Origin: Phycisphaerales bacterium
Lineage (GTDB): Bacteria; Planctomycetota; Phycisphaerae; Phycisphaerales; UBA1924
Direction: 5' to 3'
NCBI GenBank assembly: GCA_020850415.1
Contig: JADZER010000037.1
Span: forward strand, 186,001 to 250,000
DNA length: 64,000 nucleotides
Shown here: piece by piece, positions 28,542 to 38,194 of the stretch
Position numbering within the stretch: position 1 is the stretch's first letter
Layout: each line of letters opens with the position of its first letter
Notes under the pieces: model-generated
Database searches by the model: none
Seen by the model: the letters and a program-made list of their open reading frames with translations, nothing else
Told to the model about the DNA's origin: nothing
Translations under genes and position numbers: made by a program

Positions 28542-30230
28542 ATGCTCGTCCTCACCGTCCTCCAGGGCCCCGACAAGGGGCGCAAGTACCAGCTCCCGCC
28601 CAACGAGCCCCAGCTCATCGGGCGATCCAGCGAGGCGCTCCCCTTCACCGACGACACCGTCAGCCGCCGGCACGCCGAGCTCACCCCCGACGCCGGCATC
28701 TGGTGGATCCGCGATCTCCAATCCCAGAACGGCACCTATGTCAACGGCGTCAAGATCGACGGGCGCCAGCGCCTCAAGCCCGGCGACCAGATCCGCACCG
28801 GCGCCACCCTCCTGGTCTTCGGGCAGGACGAGACCGTCGACGCCGACGCCATCCAGCTCCTCAAGCCCGCCGACCTCGACTTCTCCATCGAGCGGACGCT
28901 CCCCTCCAACGAGGACTCCATGATCCTCGCCGAGCCCGAGCCCGCCGCCGCCGCCGTCGACCACCTCCGCATCATCTACCAGCTCACCACCCTCACCACC
29001 CAGGTCATGGACCGCCAGCAGCTCCTCGAGTCCGTGCTCGACCTGGTCTTCAAGGAGTTCGAGCCCGAGCGCGGCTTCATCATGCTCGCCGGCGAGACCC
29101 CCGACGCCCCCATGAAGCCCGCCGTCGTCAAGCACAGAACCCTGCCCAAGGACAAGCAGGACGCCAAGATCGGCGTCTCCCGCACCATCATCCACCATGT
29201 CATCAAGCACTCCGAGGGCGTCCTCAGCTCCAACGCCATGACCGACAGACGCTTCGCCTCCGGCGACAGCGTCCAGCGCTATCACATCCGGAGCGCCATC
29301 TGCTCCCCCATCCGCTTCCAGGACCGAGTCTTCGGCGTCGTCTACATCGACTCCTCCATCGCCAACTACACCTTCACCGAGCAGCAGCTCGCCCTCATGA
29401 ACGCCATCGGCCAGCACACCGGCCTCGCCCTCGCCAACGCCGACCACTACGGCCAGAAGCTCCACAACGAACGCCTCGCCGCCGCCGGAGAGACCGTCGC
29501 CAGCCTCTCCCACTCCATCAAGAACATCCTCCAGGGCCTCCGCGGCGGGGCCGATGTCGTCGAGATGGGCCTCCGCAAGGACGACCTCAACCTCGCTAAA
29601 AGCGGCTGGACCATCCTCAAACGAAACCTCGACCGCATCGTCGGCCTCACCATGAACATGCTCACCTTCAGCCGCCAGCACGGCGTCGAGCTCGCCCTCG
29701 AGCCCCTCGGCCTCCTCATCGACGACTGCGCCAGCCTCCTCGAATCCCGCTGCCAGCAGCGCGGCATCGCCCTCATCGTCGACCACGACCCCGAGATGCC
29801 CCCCGTCCCCATCGACGGCAACCTCATCCACCAGGCCCTCATGAACCTCCTCTCCAACGCCGTCGAGGCCGTCGAGCCGCAGAAGGGCGTCGTCACCGTC
29901 CGCACCATGTTCCGCATGACCGACCCCCTCCTCGGCCAGGGCCACAGCTTCGCCGAGGTCCACATCATCGACAACGGACCCGGCATCCCCGCCGACCGAC
30001 AACGCTGGATCTTCGAGCCCTTCAACACCACCAAGGGCACCAAAGGCACCGGCCTGGGCCTCGCCGTCACCAAACGCATCGTCGACGAGCACCGAGGCCA
30101 GATCCTCATGGAAAGCGCCGAGGGCAGAGGCACCGTCTTCCGCATCATCCTCCCCGCCGACACCCCCGAGGGGATGGACCCGTCGGCCACGGCGCAGAGC
30201 GCCCAAGCGCCGCCGCAGCGCGAGGGTTGA
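28542..30230 (+). CDS. FHA-GAF sensor histidine kinase
   Basis: A 562-residue cytoplasmic kinase without membrane segments. An FHA domain (1-95) has the phosphothreonine-site motifs IGRSSEAL, SRRHAE and SQNGTYVNG. A GAF domain (~140-310) follows, then an H-box LSHSIKNIL with the likely phosphorylated His and a HATPase with NLLSNAVEAV (N), DNGPGIP (G1) and GTKGTGLGLAV (G2). The combination suggests a histidine kinase that reads Ser/Thr phosphorylation through its FHA domain, consistent with a genome rich in Ser/Thr kinases. No response regulator is adjacent. Codons end almost always in C, unlike the accessory module that follows. Confidence 0.9.
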   Translation: MLVLTVLQGPDKGRKYQLPPNEPQLIGRSSEALPFTDDTVSRRHAELTPDAGIWWIRDLQSQNGTYVNGVKIDGRQRLKPGDQIRTGATLLVFGQDETVDADAIQLLKPADLDFSIERTLPSNEDSMILAEPEPAAAAVDHLRIIYQLTTLTTQVMDRQQLLESVLDLVFKEFEPERGFIMLAGETPDAPMKPAVVKHRTLPKDKQDAKIGVSRTIIHHVIKHSEGVLSSNAMTDRRFASGDSVQRYHIRSAICSPIRFQDRVFGVVYIDSSIANYTFTEQQLALMNAIGQHTGLALANADHYGQKLHNERLAAAGETVASLSHSIKNILQGLRGGADVVEMGLRKDDLNLAKSGWTILKRNLDRIVGLTMNMLTFSRQHGVELALEPLGLLIDDCASLLESRCQQRGIALIVDHDPEMPPVPIDGNLIHQALMNLLSNAVEAVEPQKGVVTVRTMFRMTDPLLGQGHSFAEVHIIDNGPGIPADRQRWIFEPFNTTKGTKGTGLGLAVTKRIVDEHRGQILMESAEGRGTVFRIILPADTPEGMDPSATAQSAQAPPQREG

Positions 30231-30304: not shown

Positions 30305-30337
30305 TTGACAGCACCGGGGGGGGGGGGGGGATATCTT
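30305..30337 (+). promoter_or_regulatory. Putative phase-variable promoter with 15-G spacer tract
   Basis: Consensus -35 TTGACA (30305-30310), then GCACC, fifteen G (30316-30330), and a -10-like TATCTT (30332-30337). The spacer is 21 bases; a tract of 11 G would give the optimal 17. Poly-G tracts in promoter spacers change length by slippage, as known for porA of Neisseria. The predicted transcript starts about 96 bases before the gene at 30440. Confidence 0.6.
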
Positions 30338-30439: not shown

Positions 30440-31582
30440 ATGAGCACGACCTTCCGAAACACCCTGGCGAAGGCATTCGCGACAGGAATTGCAGTCGGGC
30501 TCAGTTGCATAGCGCCCGCGGCGGCCAGGGCGCAGGTCAGCGCTGACGAGGTCGAGAGCGCAATCCTTGCCGCATGGACCGCCTCGACCACGCCGCCGGA
30601 TTTGAAGGACCTCACAGTCCGGTGGAGACTCGAACTTCTGTTCGTCCCCGACCAGGGCGAACTCAATCAGTTGCGAGAGGCCGTCCGGGGACATCCTGAC
30701 CACCCCCGGGTCGCCGAACTGGCAGGATACGAGGCGGCCTTGCGGGGCGAACCCATCAAGATGGGCCGACACCTCCTAATGCGATCGGCGGAAAGATGGC
30801 GATACGGAAGCGACCCGACCCAGACGGAGTACATTGATGTCATTGTCGATGGGCGCAACCGTTGGGAGCTGACGCGGTCGGTCCTCCGCATACTTCCTGG
30901 CGAGGGCAGCACGGACGATGGCAGAGATCCGACATTCGACTTGCACCTGTTCTGGCCGGAACTGGGGCGGCTGCTGAATGGCGGCTTTGCGCTCGGGGCA
31001 CAGTCCGGCCTCGTGCCGCAAGGGGCGTCCGTGTCCGAATCTGGAGACTGGGAGTTCCTCGCATCGAAGGGCGAGCGACCTGAAGAGGCCTTCACCGCCC
31101 GCTTCACGGGGGCCTACGACGCGCCGACCCGTACCGTGTTGCCCGCCTCGATGGAGTATGTGGAGCTCGCGGCCAAGCCGGAGTCGGTGGGGAAACGCAC
31201 CGTCTTCCGGGGCTGGCAGTGGCGCCCGCTTCTCGGAGCGTGGGCGTGCGACGAGGTGATCCAGTACCTGCCGGACGGCAAGATCGACCGGCGGCTGGTC
31301 TTCGAGAGCGTGGACCAGAATGTCACATTTGATGCGGCAGTTGCGATGCCAAAGGACGCGGGGGACGACCCACTCAGAGGCCCCGTTACCTTCTCGAGCA
31401 TCATTGACTACCGCGCAAATGAGATCGCCGATGTGGCCACAGGGGAACGGGCACGGTTCGTGGTCCAAAGCGAGCGGCAGGCCGCGCGGAGCACGGTGCG
31501 GTGGATAGGTTGGACCGCGGCCGCTGCGATCATTGTCGTGCTCGGTGTGATACGACTGCAACGGCGCCTTCGGAGCTCCTGA
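30440..31582 (+). CDS. Exported protein with C-terminal membrane anchor
   Basis: A 380-residue protein of unknown function. The signal peptide (GIAVGLSCIAPAAARA, then QVSADE) is followed by a large extracytoplasmic domain and a C-terminal transmembrane helix (WIGWTAAAAIIVVLGVIRLQ) with a short basic tail. ATG 30440 is chosen because the signal peptide begins there; the open frame continues upstream through the poly-G tract, which would encode Gly, but this looks fortuitous. Codon use is clearly less GC-biased than that of the kinase upstream. It is followed after 82 bases by a pseudopilin, together forming module 1. Confidence 0.75.
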   Translation: MSTTFRNTLAKAFATGIAVGLSCIAPAAARAQVSADEVESAILAAWTASTTPPDLKDLTVRWRLELLFVPDQGELNQLREAVRGHPDHPRVAELAGYEAALRGEPIKMGRHLLMRSAERWRYGSDPTQTEYIDVIVDGRNRWELTRSVLRILPGEGSTDDGRDPTFDLHLFWPELGRLLNGGFALGAQSGLVPQGASVSESGDWEFLASKGERPEEAFTARFTGAYDAPTRTVLPASMEYVELAAKPESVGKRTVFRGWQWRPLLGAWACDEVIQYLPDGKIDRRLVFESVDQNVTFDAAVAMPKDAGDDPLRGPVTFSSIIDYRANEIADVATGERARFVVQSERQAARSTVRWIGWTAAAAIIVVLGVIRLQRRLRSS

Positions 31583-31664: not shown

Positions 31665-32501
31665 ATGGATGCTCAGTCGAAACCTCGTGCTGCTCGTCAC
31701 GACGGTTGCCTGCTGGGCGGTGCTGCGAGACAACGGGGGGCGAAGACCGGCGCCGGGTTCACGCTGATCGAGACGATACTGGTCATCCTGCTGATCATGG
31801 TGCTTGTGGCGATGCTGCTCCCATCGCTGGGACAGGCCCGATGGCGGGCACGGACGGCGATGTCCGCTTCCCAACTGCGGAGCCACGGGCAGGTCCTCGC
31901 GGCCTATGTCGGTGACTGGGACGACGCCTGGCCGTGGTTCGCCGACCCTCAGGCAACCTGGACAGTGGTTCGATGTCAAGAGCGCGGTACGAGCGTCAAG
32001 ATCAAGTACTTCCAGTCGGCCAACAACTGGAACTACGCGCTCGCCGATCGGTACTACGACGGGCAGTTTGACCACGAGGCGTTCTACCCCCCCGGCATGC
32101 CGGACTCCGTCCAGACATACGGCCACCGTGGCGGACCGACCCCGTACTCGCTCGGATGCAGCTTCATCGCCGACCCGAAGTTCTGGCGTCCGGAGAGCCG
32201 CACCGGCCCGCGCCAATGGCGCCTCACAAGGGCCAGCGAACTGCTGTTCCCAACGGACAAGACGCTCCTGGCGTCCGACTGGCCCCTGCTGGCCGAACTG
32301 CCGAACCCGATCCCGCCCGTCACCGCCGCTCGGGCCGGCATGGAGATGTGCTTCGCGGACGGCTCGGCGGAGTCGCTGTCAACAACTTCGCTGCGAGCAG
32401 GATACGAAGGCAGCGACGGAGTGTTCGATGGCTCGTGGCACATTACGGATTTCCCGTACGCTGTCCACACCCTCGAAGGCGTCAAGGGTCGGGATCGCTA
32501 A
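31665..32501 (+). CDS. Pseudopilin, module 1
   Basis: A 278-residue protein with a type IV prepilin-like N-terminus after an unusually long (~31-residue) leader: GAGFTLIETILVILLIMVLV, cleavage expected after Gly with Phe as new N-terminus and Glu at +5. The rest resembles planctomycete type II secretion-like pseudopilins, with a MCFADGSAESL segment in the position of the H-x9-DG motif of DUF1559-like proteins and a C-terminal GVKGRDR. It is related to the pseudopilin at 36175: compare YSLGCSFIADPKFW ... ELLFPTDKTLL with FRYSRSFLARPEAW ... EVLFPSSKALL. Confidence 0.8.
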   Translation: MDAQSKPRAARHDGCLLGGAARQRGAKTGAGFTLIETILVILLIMVLVAMLLPSLGQARWRARTAMSASQLRSHGQVLAAYVGDWDDAWPWFADPQATWTVVRCQERGTSVKIKYFQSANNWNYALADRYYDGQFDHEAFYPPGMPDSVQTYGHRGGPTPYSLGCSFIADPKFWRPESRTGPRQWRLTRASELLFPTDKTLLASDWPLLAELPNPIPPVTAARAGMEMCFADGSAESLSTTSLRAGYEGSDGVFDGSWHITDFPYAVHTLEGVKGRDR

Positions 32502-32720
32502 CGGGCGTCGGCCGAGGTGGGCGGATGCGTGGCTCCGCTTCCGCGCCGTCGAACCCGCCCAGGGTGCAGGTCTCTACCGTCGTATCATGGAGTGACTTCG
32601 TCCCGGGCGCCGTCGGGCGCTGAGCCTCGTACGGGGCATCCACCGCCTCCGAATCCCCGTGCCAAGGCCTCTTGTGAGCAGACCTGCCCGCCTGTAGACT
32701 ATCGCCGAGGGAGGTGTGCC

Positions 32721-33395
32721 ATGCGCCCGACGCGTCCGAGGGCCTTCACCCTCATCGAGCTCCTCGTCGTCATCGCCATCATCGCGATGCTCATCTCCAT
32801 GCTCCTCCCCGCACTCGGCAAGGCCCGCGCCGCCGGACGCGCCGTCGCCTGCGCCTCCGGACTCCGCCAGATCGACACCGCCACCGAGCTCTACACCGGC
32901 GCCTTCGACGGCCTCTACCCACCCCGCTCCAGCCCCCGCTGGGTCTCCCTCCTCGCCACCCACGCCGAGGTCGGCTCGGTCTACCTCTGCCCCGAGGACC
33001 GCGACGCCGCCGGCGGCACGCCCGACAACCTCCCCGAAGACCGCGCCCCCCGCAGCTACCTCTTCAACGGCTTTAACGACTACTTCGTCGACCGCAACGC
33101 CGGCCAGGGCGGCGTCGAGCAGTCCAACGACAAGTCCATGCCCACCTGGGGCGTCGACTTCCCCTCCGACACCTGCCTCTGGGGCGAGAAGCGCTCCGAG
33201 AGCACCCACTACTACCTCGATCTCCTCGAAGGCCTCGGCAACGACTTCACCGAGCTCGAGCCCAGCCGCCACGGCCTCAACACCTCCAACGCCGGCATGG
33301 CCGACGGCAGCGCCCGCTCCATCAAGCACCCCGCCGCCCTCACGCCAGTCAACCTCTGGGGCGTCACCAAGTGGGGACGAGAGTCGGTGTACTGA
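32721..33395 (+). CDS. DUF1559-like pseudopilin
   Basis: A 224-residue type IV prepilin-like protein: RAFTLIELLVVIAIIAMLIS is a textbook prepilin-peptidase site and hydrophobic helix. The H-x9-DG motif near the C-terminus is HGLNTSNAGMADG. Such proteins are highly multiplied in planctomycetes, and their role (pseudopilus or exported surface protein) is not established. GAGGGAGG just before the ATG sets the start. Codon use is of the C-ending host type, unlike the module-1 and module-2 pseudopilins. The stop overlaps the next start by one base (TGATG). Confidence 0.88.
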   Translation: MRPTRPRAFTLIELLVVIAIIAMLISMLLPALGKARAAGRAVACASGLRQIDTATELYTGAFDGLYPPRSSPRWVSLLATHAEVGSVYLCPEDRDAAGGTPDNLPEDRAPRSYLFNGFNDYFVDRNAGQGGVEQSNDKSMPTWGVDFPSDTCLWGEKRSESTHYYLDLLEGLGNDFTELEPSRHGLNTSNAGMADGSARSIKHPAALTPVNLWGVTKWGRESVY

Positions 33396-33868: not shown

Positions 33869-34196
33869 GCGGCCCGCGCCTCCGCGCATCCGGAATCCCG
33901 CCAGTTCCAATCGCGCCACCACGCCAGCGATGGGCGGCGATCTGCCCCCTCTCCCGCCTACCTCACTCCGGCCCCCTCTCCCGCCCCCGGCGGGAGAGGG
34001 CTGGGGAGAGGGCTCTTTCTTCTCTTTCTTCTCCTCATGCTTTCTTCCTTTCTGCCCCACAGGCTCCTCTGCGAAACTCTGCGACCTCAGCATGAGAACT
34101 GCCTTCCCCGTCTTCCTCTGTGTCCCTCTGTGTCCCTCTGTGGCCTCTGTGGTGAATCCACCTTCCTCCCGCCCCGCCCGCGGCGAACACTCCCCC
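33869..34196. repeat. Non-coding repeat patch upstream of dinB fragment
   Basis: No gene is seen here. A 12-bp perfect inverted repeat CCCTCTCCCGCC/GGCGGGAGAGGG (33974-33985 with 33989-34000) is followed by CTGGGGAGAGGG and a T/C-rich tract, and could serve as terminator for the preceding gene. At 34112-34158 there is a tandem CTCTGTGTCC-type repeat ending CTCTGTGGTGAATCCA. From memory both types recur between genes of planctomycetes and relatives. A decayed TTTCTTCTC repeat lies between them. Confidence 0.75.
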
Positions 34197-34298
34197 ATGC
34201 CCCGCGCCATCCTCCATGTCGACATGGACGCCTTCTTCGCCTCCGTCGAGCAGCTCGACAACCCCGACCTCCGTGGCAAGCCCGTCCTCTTCGGCGGC
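34192..34298 (+). pseudogene. dinB 5' fragment (duplicated, truncated)
   Basis: Starts with ATG at 34197 and encodes the first ~34 residues of DNA polymerase IV ([20 protein letters not shown]) before departing from it at 34299 and stopping at 34325. The 107 bases match 37011-37117 at all but two positions (A/G in the start codon, T/G at 34290). The complete gene follows 2.8 kb downstream. This copy keeps the ATG and probably the ancestral upstream DNA, so it marks the left border of an insertion. Confidence 0.9.
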
Positions 34299-34407: not shown

Positions 34408-34434
34408 TTGACATAGGTTAGGGGGGGGTACATT
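34408..34434 (+). promoter_or_regulatory. Putative phase-variable promoter with 8-G spacer tract
   Basis: TTGACA (34408-34413), TAGGTTA, eight G (34421-34428), then TACATT (34429-34434). The spacer is 15 bases; nine or ten G would give 16 or 17. It has the same architecture as the promoter at 30305-30337. The predicted transcription start is about 93 bases before the GTG at 34534. Confidence 0.58.
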
Positions 34435-34533: not shown

Positions 34534-35019
34534 GTGGGGTTCAGCTGGCTGTTCCTTACGGAACTGTGGACGGTGCTACTGGCCGGCGTGTTCTACTTCG
34601 CAGCACTCCACAAATTGTGGAGCCCCGCCGGGACTCAGCGGGCAATTGGTTGGTACGCGACCAGGTTGGGGATGGACGACACGCCCGCGGAGTCTGTCGC
34701 GGCTATCGGCTTTCCGGCACTGGTGATCCTCGAAGTATCTCTCGCGACAGTGCTCTTGATCGGGCGGGTGCCCCGCGTGGCAATGGCCGCGTCTGTTCTG
34801 GTCTTTGGGGGCTTCACGGCTTGGCTGGCGCACGCCCGATTGCTGGGCATGCAAACGGGCTGCGGGTGCGGCCTGCCGCCGCTGTTCGGCGAGGGTGTCG
34901 GCGGCGCGGTTCTCCGCAACGCTGTGTTGATGTGTCTGACAGTGCTTGCGTTCGCGGGTCGACGGCCCGCGGCAAACACCAGAGTCAATCAGAAGCAATG
35001 TGGAGAGCGGAAGCGGTGA
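34534..35019 (+). CDS. MauE/DoxX-like redox membrane protein
   Basis: A 161-residue protein with four hydrophobic segments. The second half has GMQTGCGCGLPPLFGEGVGG followed by a VLRNAVLMCLTVLAF helix, which fits the MauE/DoxX redox-associated pattern in which a CGC motif precedes the last helix. MauE is needed for disulfide formation in the methylamine dehydrogenase small subunit. GTG 34534 is chosen because CAGGAG lies eight bases upstream; TTG 34459 and GTG 34474 are alternatives. It is followed 34 bases later by a ten-cysteine secreted peptide, its likely substrate. Confidence 0.78.
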   Translation: MGFSWLFLTELWTVLLAGVFYFAALHKLWSPAGTQRAIGWYATRLGMDDTPAESVAAIGFPALVILEVSLATVLLIGRVPRVAMAASVLVFGGFTAWLAHARLLGMQTGCGCGLPPLFGEGVGGAVLRNAVLMCLTVLAFAGRRPAANTRVNQKQCGERKR

Positions 35020-35053
35020 AGTACTGAACCCTCTCTCAACAAAGGAGCGAAGC

Positions 35054-35356
35054 GTGTCTGACCGATTTCGAGTGTGGGCTCGTGCGAAGTCTGGGGTCTT
35101 GGCGGCAGTTGGCGTGGGTGGTCTGTTGGGGGTGGCCTCAGGCGCTCTGGCGCAGAGTGTGTTTCCGATCAAGATCTGTGAGTTCTGTTACGACTACTCG
35201 GACACTGTGACCATCTGTGACCATGTGTTCTGCTGGTCCAACGCCGGGTGTACCGGTCAGGTGTGCCAAGCGAACGATGGACTTACCGTTCGAGCATGCT
35301 GCAATTCCTGTCCGGATGACGATTGGCAGGACACTTGTGATGGTGACCCGCAGTAA
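35054..35356 (+). CDS. Secreted ten-cysteine peptide
   Basis: A 100-residue protein with a clear signal peptide (VLAAVGVGGLLGVASGALA, cleavage before QSVFP). The mature ~65 residues hold ten cysteines in the order CEFC, C, C, C, C, CCNSC, C, enough for five disulfides, and are acidic at the C-terminus (CPDDDWQDTCDGDPQ). AAAGGAG six bases before GTG fixes the start. It lies between the MauE-like gene and a pseudopilin-linked gene. The density of cysteines recalls the MauA small subunit, but I see no proof of homology. No known toxin or bacteriocin pattern. Confidence 0.8.
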   Translation: MSDRFRVWARAKSGVLAAVGVGGLLGVASGALAQSVFPIKICEFCYDYSDTVTICDHVFCWSNAGCTGQVCQANDGLTVRACCNSCPDDDWQDTCDGDPQ

Positions 35357-35377
35357 GGAGAGGGGAGCCAGACGCAC

Positions 35378-36160
35378 ATGGCGATTGACAGCCGACGCGT
35401 ACGCGTTATCCTCGCCCTCGCGCTGGCGGCTGCTGGCGTCGGAATGACGATCATGGTCGTTGCCCGTCAGCGGTCGGGTGGCTCCAGCCGAACTGCTGGG
35501 CTCCTGGCGGACCAGGAAGGGGTCCAAAGACTGGCCGAAATTGACTCTTACCAAGCCGTAGAGTCCCCAACGCCCGATGGCACGGAACAAACTCGAGAGC
35601 AGCTGAGAGCGGATCTGGAGGCGCGGCTCAGAACGATCACAGTCCCCGGTGCCGCTCATGGACTACCCGGGAGTCTCGCGGGGTTGGCTGCCAAACGCCT
35701 CGCGCTACACGCGTTTCCATCGTGGGAGGCATATCGGGCGCAGGTGTCCCCCTTGGCGGCGAGGCCTGACGCAACGAACGCGGCCATGTTTGAGAAGGAG
35801 ATCTGGACGAAGCTGGCGGCCGTATTTGCGAAGGCAGAATTCGCCTTCGACAAGATCGAAATCCGTCGAAGCACCGGTGACGAGTCTGCCATGCTCGGGG
35901 CGCTGTCGATACAGGGCGGTCGATTCACCACAACCCGTGATGGGGGGTTCTACTCCGACAAGGCTGACGCTCCCGTCGAAGTGATTCACATTGTCGTCCC
36001 CATCCGTCTCAATGGGTGGCAGCAGGCGGACGGCCCGCTGGAGTTGCAGCTGATCGAAAGCTACCGCCAGCGAGCATCCGACGGGGCCTGGGTTCCGTAC
36101 CGAGCGGGGGTCTACGACCCCGCTGGCAAGGCCCGGTCGTTGCCCGTGCCCTGGCTTTGA
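35378..36160 (+). CDS. Hypothetical exported/anchored protein, module 2
   Basis: A 260-residue protein with an N-terminal membrane segment (VILALALAAAGVGMTIMVVA) and an extracytoplasmic domain. A helical stretch (EQTREQLRADLEARLRTITV) is followed by a strand-rich half (FDKIEIRRSTGDESAMLGAL ... PVEVIHIVVPIRLNGW). Function unknown. It lies 21 bases after the cysteine-peptide gene and 14 bases before the pseudopilin, so all four genes of module 2 are probably one operon. Codon use is less GC-biased than the genomic background. Confidence 0.72.
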   Translation: MAIDSRRVRVILALALAAAGVGMTIMVVARQRSGGSSRTAGLLADQEGVQRLAEIDSYQAVESPTPDGTEQTREQLRADLEARLRTITVPGAAHGLPGSLAGLAAKRLALHAFPSWEAYRAQVSPLAARPDATNAAMFEKEIWTKLAAVFAKAEFAFDKIEIRRSTGDESAMLGALSIQGGRFTTTRDGGFYSDKADAPVEVIHIVVPIRLNGWQQADGPLELQLIESYRQRASDGAWVPYRAGVYDPAGKARSLPVPWL

Positions 36161-36174
36161 GGAGGCGTCGGTCC

Positions 36175-36939
36175 ATGGTGTTTCGCGGATCGATCGGGAG
36201 AGCTCTTGCGCGGAGACGCCGGGCGTTCTCGCTGATTGAGGTGCTGGTGAGCATCGGGGTAGTCGGCGTGCTCATGGCGTTGCTTCTGGTATCACTCGGC
36301 AAAGCTCGCCAGGGCGCATCGAGCACCGTGATGCTCTCGAACGGGCGAAGCGCTGCCATTGCGTTCGATGCGTACAACACCTCGTATCGAGAGGCGTTTC
36401 CCTGGTCCGCGGTTTGGCAGCCCCTGCGGGTGTCTCCAGAGCGGGGCGGCCCGTTCGTGAGCTCTGACGACCCGTGGATTCTCACGACCCTGTGGCCCGC
36501 ACTCATGCACGAGTCCGCACCATGGCCCGAGAACTACGAGTCCTGGATTGATCCCACCAAGGCCGGTCGCGGGCGCCTCCCATGGCTCCAGGAGTCAGGC
36601 GGATGGTTGCCACCTTCGTTCCGTTACAGCCGGTCGTTTCTCGCGAGGCCCGAAGCGTGGTCGGGCGATTGGGCTGGCGACGAGGAGCGGCTCTTGGCCC
36701 CGACACGAAGCTACGAGGTGCTTTTCCCAAGTTCGAAGGCTCTGCTCTTCGACGGCGAGCGGTCGTATCTGCGCAGAGCTCCGGTCCCGGGAGATGCCCG
36801 GGTTGTGGTCACCACCGATGCCTCCGTTTCGCTCCACACGGACGCGGAAGTCCTTCCTCCCGTTCAAAACGCCGTCAACGCGGCATTGCCCGCACCCTTG
36901 CACGACACAAAGGACGGCGTGCGCGGTCGCGACTTCTAG
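36175..36939 (+). CDS. Pseudopilin, module 2
   Basis: A 254-residue type IV prepilin-like protein: a basic leader, then RRRAFSLIEVLVSIGVVGVL with the expected cleavage site before the Phe and Glu at +5. The C-terminal half matches the module-1 pseudopilin at 31665 (FRYSRSFLARPEAW, EVLFPSSKALLFDGE, ending DGVRGRDF versus EGVKGRDR). GGAGG nine bases upstream sets ATG 36175. It is the last gene before the right-hand dinB repeat. Confidence 0.85.
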   Translation: MVFRGSIGRALARRRRAFSLIEVLVSIGVVGVLMALLLVSLGKARQGASSTVMLSNGRSAAIAFDAYNTSYREAFPWSAVWQPLRVSPERGGPFVSSDDPWILTTLWPALMHESAPWPENYESWIDPTKAGRGRLPWLQESGGWLPPSFRYSRSFLARPEAWSGDWAGDEERLLAPTRSYEVLFPSSKALLFDGERSYLRRAPVPGDARVVVTTDASVSLHTDAEVLPPVQNAVNAALPAPLHDTKDGVRGRDF

Positions 36940-37010
36940 CGACGGCGCTGCGACGGGGTCCAGCTCTCTGGGTGCGACGCCCGCACTCCAAGACTTGCTG
37001 GCGAATAATT

Positions 37011-37117
37011 CCCCCGTGCCCCGCGCCATCCTCCATGTCGACATGGACGCCTTCTTCGCCTCCGTCGAGCAGCTCGACAACCCCGACCTCCGTGGCAAGC
37101 CCGTCCTCGTCGGCGGC
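37011..37117 (+). repeat. Right copy of 107-bp dinB direct repeat
   Basis: Same orientation as 34192-34298 with two mismatches. It contains the start and first 34 codons of the intact dinB. The 2.7 kb between the two copies holds the MauE/cysteine-peptide/pseudopilin operon. No integrase, transposase or inverted terminal repeats are seen inside or beside it. Confidence 0.9.
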
Positions 37118-38194
37118 ACCAGCAAACGAGGCGTCATCTCCGCCGCCAGCTACGAGGCCCGCGCCTTCGGCTGCCGCAGCGCCATGCCCACCGCCGTCGC
37201 CAAGCGACTCTGCCCCCACGCCATCGTCGTCAAGACCCGCGGCCGCCGCTACCGCGAGCTCTCCGACCAGGTCTTCGCCATCTTCGACGACTTCACCCCA
37301 CTCGTCCAACCCCTCTCGATCGACGAGGCCTTCCTCGATGTCACCGGCTCTGAGCGCCTCCTCGGCCCCGCCCTCGGCATCGCCACCACCATCCGCGCCC
37401 GCATCAAGGCCGAGACCGGACTCACCGCCTCCGTCGGCCTCGCCCCCAACAAGTTCCTCGCCAAGCTCGCCAGCGATCTCAAGAAGCCCGACGCCCTCGT
37501 CGTCATCGACCCCGACCGCATCCAGGAGACCCTCGACCCCCTCCCCGTCACCGTCATCTTCGGCATCGGCAAGGCCGCGGCTCAGCGCCTCGAGCGCCTC
37601 GGCGTCCGCACCATCGCCCAACTCCGCCAGCTCGAGCCCCGCACGCTGAAGGCGACCTTCGGCTCCTGGGGCGAGCGCGTCGGCCAGCTCGCCCGCGGCG
37701 AGGACGACCGCCCCGTCGTCCCCGACCACGCCGCCAAGAGCGTCGGCCACGAGACCACCTTCGGCGAGAACCTCACCACCCCCGACGAGGTCCGCGCCGT
37801 CCTGCTCCAACTCACCGAGGACACCGCCTGGCGACTCCGAAAGAAAGACCGCCGCGCCCGCACCATCACCTGCAAGATCCGCTTCGGCGACTTCGAGACC
37901 ATCACCCGCGCAACCACCCTCGACACCGCCACCAACACCACCGCCGAGCTCTGGGCCGCCGCCGCCGAGGTCTTCGACGCCTGGGCCGCCAAGAGCTTCC
38001 AGCCCGTCCGCCTCATCGGCATCCAGGCCAGCGCCCTCACGGAAACCGCCGAGACCCAGCCCGGCCTCTTCCCCGACCCCGCCCACGAACGCCAGCAGGC
38101 CCTCGACAAAGCCAGCGACGCCGTCGCCGCCAAGTTCGGCAAGGGCTCGATCCGCCGGGCCCGGACCCTGCCAGATGATCCGGACCGGGGGTAG
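37016..38194 (+). CDS. dinB: DNA polymerase IV (Y family)
   Basis: A 392-residue error-prone translesion polymerase. The catalytic palm has [13 protein letters not shown] and SIDEAFLDVT with the metal-binding acids, and YEARAFGCRSAMP and SVGLAPNKFLAKLASDLKKP are family signatures. A helix-hairpin-helix thumb and little-finger domain follow. It starts with GTG, where the truncated upstream copy has ATG. AATAAT lies six bases before GTG and could act as a -10 for a leaderless message supplied by the inserted DNA. No clear LexA box or Shine-Dalgarno is visible. The near C-terminal QPGLFPDP may be a beta-clamp-binding motif. Confidence 0.94.
   Translation: MPRAILHVDMDAFFASVEQLDNPDLRGKPVLVGGTSKRGVISAASYEARAFGCRSAMPTAVAKRLCPHAIVVKTRGRRYRELSDQVFAIFDDFTPLVQPLSIDEAFLDVTGSERLLGPALGIATTIRARIKAETGLTASVGLAPNKFLAKLASDLKKPDALVVIDPDRIQETLDPLPVTVIFGIGKAAAQRLERLGVRTIAQLRQLEPRTLKATFGSWGERVGQLARGEDDRPVVPDHAAKSVGHETTFGENLTTPDEVRAVLLQLTEDTAWRLRKKDRRARTITCKIRFGDFETITRATTLDTATNTTAELWAAAAEVFDAWAAKSFQPVRLIGIQASALTETAETQPGLFPDPAHERQQALDKASDAVAAKFGKGSIRRARTLPDDPDRG

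Follow-up and report, generated by a model that had tools for sequence, protein, structure and literature searches.

Two gene modules with predicted envelope products in a Phycisphaerales genome are each preceded by a putative promoter of the sigma-70 type in which a run of G lies between the -35 and -10 boxes, and promoters of the same construction recur before related modules in other genomes of the family. They are interpreted here as slipped-strand phase-variable promoters of the porA type driving envelope modules, with a probability of roughly 0.8. The identity of the promoters, their linkage to the modules and the differences in tract length between species and between paralogues are established by comparison of sequences; that tracts slip within a clone, and that transcription changes as a result, is inferred by analogy with porA. 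In Neisseria meningitidis, tracts of 11, 10 and 9 G between the -35 and -10 boxes of porA are associated with decreasing expression, in that order (PMC3639595).

The window, i.e. the whole stretch of 64 kb that was analysed, contains only two runs of eight or more G or C, and both lie in putative promoters on the forward strand. The promoter of module 2 (34408-34434) is composed of the -35 box TTGACA (34408-34413), the 7 nt TAGGTTA (34414-34420), a G8 tract (34421-34428) and the adjoining -10 box TACATT (34429-34434), for a total spacer of 15; this layout, first described in a sequence-only reading, was found to be exact when the sequence was re-read. At the sister site (30305-30337), which precedes module 1, TTGACA (30305-30310) is followed by GCACC, a G15 tract (30316-30330) and, as a best guess, TATCTT (30332-30337), giving a spacer of 21; this -10 box is ambiguous and other registers are possible. 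The two spacers flank the modal range of 16-19, in agreement with the earlier proposal that one tract is too long and the other too short. The distances of ~93 and ~96 nt proposed between predicted start and first gene are right for the GTG at 34534 and the ATG at 30440, but their near equality is coincidental, because the distance from tract to conserved protein start varies from 28 to more than 200 nt in relatives.

Module 2 (34534-36939) comprises four genes on the forward strand. The first encodes a MauE-family membrane protein (34534-35019, GTG start; PF07291, E 4.5e-14, 53.3 bits against a cut-off of 27), followed by a small Cys-rich exported protein (35054-35356, GTG start inferred from the homologue in G002, a genome of the same genus) without any Pfam or NCBIfam match above cut-off, and by a 260-aa protein with an N-terminal hydrophobic stretch (35378-36160), which is conserved in the G002 module and has no Pfam or NCBIfam match. 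A promoter-like TTGACA-N16-TATCCT also stands at the very start of this 260-aa gene (35385-35412); about 0.6 matches of this kind are expected by chance. The last gene encodes a pseudopilin (36175-36939, ATG start inferred) with the motif AFSLIEV and the C-terminus DGVRGRDF, which meets the prepilin motif [GA]-F-[ST]-L-x-E above the curated cut-offs of PF07963 and TIGR02532. Module 1, on the same strand, encodes a 380-aa exported protein with a C-terminal membrane helix (30440-31582) and a pseudopilin (31665-32501; GFTLIET, ending EGVKGRDR) that is 31% identical to that of module 2 and has GFTLIE, yet remains below the Pfam cut-off (15.5 vs 21.2). No sequence family in Pfam or NCBIfam matches the 380-aa protein. 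Its structure model (pLDDT 83) finds LolA, DUF1329, LolB and RseB as best PDB matches, with E down to 8e-7 and TM-scores of only ~0.2-0.5, so that the predicted fold has no more than a remote similarity to LolA/RseB-type half barrels.

The MauE protein resembles that of methylamine utilisation (PF07291) in exceeding the curated cut-off and in its conserved C-x-C pair. It differs from the Mau system in that no genes for methylamine dehydrogenase or other Mau enzymes were found within the modules, and in that MauE is often fused in frame to the pseudopilin in relatives; it is thus to be regarded as a family member by sequence and not as part of a Mau system. That MauE helps its Cys-rich or LolA-like partner to form disulfides is no more than a guess by analogy with the Mau system. 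The module pseudopilins share a prepilin N-terminus with the planctomycete DUF1559 / H-X9-DG pilins, but they end in T-x-x-G-x-x-G-R-D and do not match those models.

The simplest objection is that TTGACA and a G run have met by chance in GC-rich DNA. Runs of eight or more G are indeed not rare in this genome (251 in 4.43 Mb), and the excess of the motif within it is modest: from these runs and the window's own rate of TTGACA, ~0.25 sites of the form TTGACA-N3-9-G8 are expected and 2 are found (P ~0.03), which is weak evidence taken alone. Decisive evidence is provided by comparison with other genomes. TTGACA-N3-9-G8 is present in 41 of 121 genomes (the genome itself and relatives), and ~75 distinct sites were listed; a reversed-hexamer control in the same genomes gave 15 hits in total. 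Moreover, 73 different TTGACA-N0-12-G8+ sites, almost all of them in relatives, were compared for the sequence 3' of the tract, which had played no part in their selection: at 53 of them TAnnnT begins no more than 4 nt after the tract, at 37 directly after it, while the same holds for only 1 of 28 control G8+ runs that have neither TTGACA nor a one-mismatch -35 box (Fisher P 8e-11). The sole exception among the controls, G18-TAGTCT in L054, precedes a MauE gene, and TTGCAC could serve as its -35 box. In G002 the same four genes as in module 2 follow TTGACA-ACATC-G11-TAGATT, with the same -35 box and a spacer of 16. Together with the search for modules blind to the promoter that is described below, these results refute a chance origin, which retains virtually no credibility, and bear out the earlier argument that two occurrences of so unusual an arrangement are not accidental. 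The TTGACA/poly-G sites are, as judged from sequence, real promoters of the sigma-70 type, and they possess the feature which defines a porA-type promoter, a repeat tract between recognisable -35 and -10 boxes. Searching the whole of the own genome for TTGACA-N0-12-G8 yields 3 sites only, two of which are the window promoters; the third (N2, contig C18) was rejected as a module promoter, as no -10 box adjoins its tract and no pilin module is in view.

Spacers at these sites range from 11 to 22, mostly 16-19, and the tracts reach 19 G. At some sites with very short spacers (L164, L165), an overlapping second TTGAC restores a normal distance. A search for G8-N0-6-TATAAT returned few sites, because the -10 box is here TAnnnT, often TAGnnT, and rarely the full consensus.

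The association with genes is equally far from random. At ~62 usable poly-G sites, a MauE gene lies downstream on the same strand in 26 cases and a pseudopilin gene in ~32, compared with 0 and 1 in the antisense control, and many poly-G promoters precede genes outside the modules. To exclude selection by promoter, the modules were also retrieved without reference to it, by searching 163 genomes of the family with the alignment of the module 1 protein (A1); the copies in this alignment had been collected by way of the motif, its hits had not. Matches were obtained in 64 genomes, and 71 copies have usable upstream sequence, with a pseudopilin downstream in 68 and MauE in 60. Upstream of the 71 copies, G8+ occurs in 22, C8+ in 15 more and (TC)14 in 1, whereas 26, about a third, belong to modules without a tract; the tract-less copies with a recognisable promoter mostly have a spacer of 16-18 nt. 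G/C runs number 38 against 1.1 expected, at a density of 2.07 per kb upstream of the modules, 34-fold the 0.060 per kb in the remainder of these loci. Collecting MauE genes by similarity alone gave a smaller set with a consistent result: a run of 8 to 14 G, located at -140 to -192, precedes 3 of 7 MauE-first modules with the pilin in its usual place. A tract is carried by each of the four modules found in the genome itself (G15, G8, C13 and C9), the latter two being module 1 paralogues (L190 on C23 and L223 on C50) with the C run in the promoter spacer. The genome-wide check that had been called for in the sequence-only reading, namely whether the motif is random with respect to genes, has therefore gone in its favour, with about half of the promoter-blind modules carrying a G/C tract.

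Across this set, repeats of G, C and CT occupy the same position in the module promoters. For poly-C the claim rests on the module-anchored set, since genome-wide the poly-C pattern is only modestly above control in 61 relatives. The (TC)14 dinucleotide repeat itself was seen in a module promoter of G002 (L196, contig C1), in place of poly-G or poly-C. That the repeats differ bears on whether the tract might owe its effect to a binding protein or to a structure specific to one strand, such as a G-quadruplex, instead of to spacer length. Contiguous G tracts are unusual DNA and G15 could form such a structure, but eight G do not suffice for an intramolecular quadruplex, the same place is taken in other modules by poly-C or (CT)n, and the near-constant feature is the distance from -35 to -10 and not the count of G. 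This explanation is accordingly held to be very improbable.

Tract length was found to differ between related loci. Three sister species of genus g57 share TTGACAGATGTAC-Gn-TAGGGTGGTG with n = 11, 9 and 9, and the two Gs are the sole indel near the promoter, the flanks being otherwise conserved; the expectation that tract lengths vary is thereby met. In G036, paralogous promoters with ~70 nearly identical upstream bases have G18 and G9. The two sites concerned (L112, contig C45) share TTGACAGGCT and are followed by different genes, as would result from copying of the promoter. For the window promoters themselves, only diverged relatives can be compared: G8 against G11 in the G002 orthologue, and G15 against G9 at the G001 site most like that of module 1. 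All these lengths are assembled consensus, which in MAGs may be wrong, with one genome per species.

That the tracts could be mere artefacts of sequencing or assembly is suggested by at least nine of the fetched sites, which are no more than 200 nt away from the end of a contig, a position that fits either mixtures of lengths or trouble in sequencing homopolymers. Most tracts, however, are well inside contigs and flanked by conserved promoter boxes; they also occur in single-contig genomes (G001, G109), they are linked to one gene family, and breaks at tracts are also compatible with true length mixtures, so that an artefact can hardly be maintained.

A more serious alternative accepts the promoters as real and regards the homopolymer as a fixed spacer, which tunes promoter strength over evolutionary time without any switching within populations. 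It draws support from the fact that length differences have been seen only between species and paralogues, that MutS is present in the genome, and that about a third of the modules do without a tract. On the other hand, tracts of up to 19 G and the presence of G, C and CT repeats at the same position are hard to explain unless instability is selected, and long homopolymer tracts are generally known to slip even with mismatch repair. Loss of mismatch repair was itself considered as a cause and rejected, MutS being present, and for the same reason slippage rates need not be high. A fixed spacer is considered unlikely.

Under the preferred reading of slipped-strand phase variation, the mononucleotide G tract inside the -35/-10 spacer of a sigma-70 type promoter would be lengthened or shortened by mispairing during replication, which would move the boxes away from or towards the optimum of 16-18 nt and thereby take module 2 from strong to weak transcription or back. 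The G15 tract of module 1 would let that module switch independently. Both modules are predicted to be weak in the assembled consensus, given spacers of 15 for module 2 and 21 for module 1; the gain of 1 to 3 Gs in module 2, or the loss of ~3-5 in module 1, would bring the spacer to 16-18. As the putative products are a MauE membrane protein (by inference a disulfide-bond helper), a Cys-rich or LolA-like exported protein and a pseudopilin, individual cells would differ in the composition of their envelope.

The two modules lie in a variable locus. An FHA-GAF histidine kinase-like gene (28542-30230, forward) forms its left border, and dinB (DNA polymerase IV; 37016-38194, forward) directly follows module 2, an order of module 2 and dinB shared with G002; in G001 an esterase-like gene stands between the kinase gene and dinB. 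Since genomes of the same genus have either module 2 or the esterase-like gene between kinase and dinB, this junction is a hotspot for accessory genes. In the window, the kinase gene and module 2 are separated by an additional 4 kb with module 1, another pilin (32703-33395, weakly matching DUF1559 / H-X9-DG models), a 165-aa gene and a truncated copy of the 5' end of dinB (34191-34298, forward), a 108-nt direct repeat 98% identical to 37010-37117. By inference, the locus looks like two alternative alleles joined in tandem. GC3 is 0.61-0.79 in the module genes and 0.90-0.95 in their neighbours.

In many modules, MauE and pseudopilin are encoded in one open frame. Fourteen such fusions were aligned (A2; L104:2566-3684, L106:3289-4476(-) and 12 more loci), all of which match Pfam MauE (E up to 0.05) and 13 of which match N_methyl, with the C-x-C pair conserved in MauE and the prepilin motif ~140-180 residues into the polypeptide. 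In a structure model of a fusion (mean pLDDT 76), a bundle of four membrane helices is joined by a poorly ordered linker to a long pilin-like helix and a head. No account of a link between MauE and pseudopilins was found in the open-access literature searched.

The promoter type is by no means restricted to Planctomycetes. Scanning genome contigs for TTGACA-N1-9-G9-TAnnnT gave at least 117 loci (L228-L344), from uncultured Clostridia, Bacilli, Treponema, Lentisphaerae and others, and from the matches listed the repeat-spacer promoter is widespread over many phyla. Among these listed loci, only L263 (Phycisphaerales) and L342 have a complete module by HMM, and L295 (Phycisphaerales) has a MauE match. 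At L251, two copies of the motif have near-identical surroundings and downstream genes that start alike.

The proposed mechanism is already known from other bacteria; the novelty appears to lie in the lineage concerned, in the modules and in the fact that different repeats recur at a single position. As in porA, a G tract of similar length (9-11 G in porA) occupies a sigma-70 spacer, the product belongs to the envelope and relatives differ in tract length; unlike porA, a single porin gene, the planctomycete promoters drive a whole operon-like module at many loci per family, also occur with poly-C or CT in that position and are found in free-living bacteria, with switching only inferred. Homopolymer length also sets transcription in Neisseria opc, through a poly-C spacer, and in Bordetella fim, through poly-C near the -10 box. 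These are likewise repeat-controlled promoters, and the fim product, fimbriae, is pilus-like; the fim tracts, however, act with an upstream activator, and neither system is known to include a pseudopilin/MauE module; both belong to other phyla. Judging from titles and abstracts, the open-access papers found on phase variation in Planctomycetes describe no system of this kind.

On balance, the evidence leans somewhat towards the wider proposal that Phycisphaerales possess a large family of loci that switch independently of one another, with slippage of G, C or CT repeats in the spacer toggling envelope modules, including an unreported MauE-pseudopilin fusion architecture with an internal prepilin cleavage site. 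The module set has brought this fusion to notice and, with its promoters, would supply a sequence rule for finding switching loci. Contingency loci are known above all from pathogens adapted to a host; if the proposal is true, combinatorial envelope variety would arise within each population of free-living bacteria, and family-wide repeat-spacer promoters tied to one module type would suggest random envelope diversification in environmental planctomycetes.
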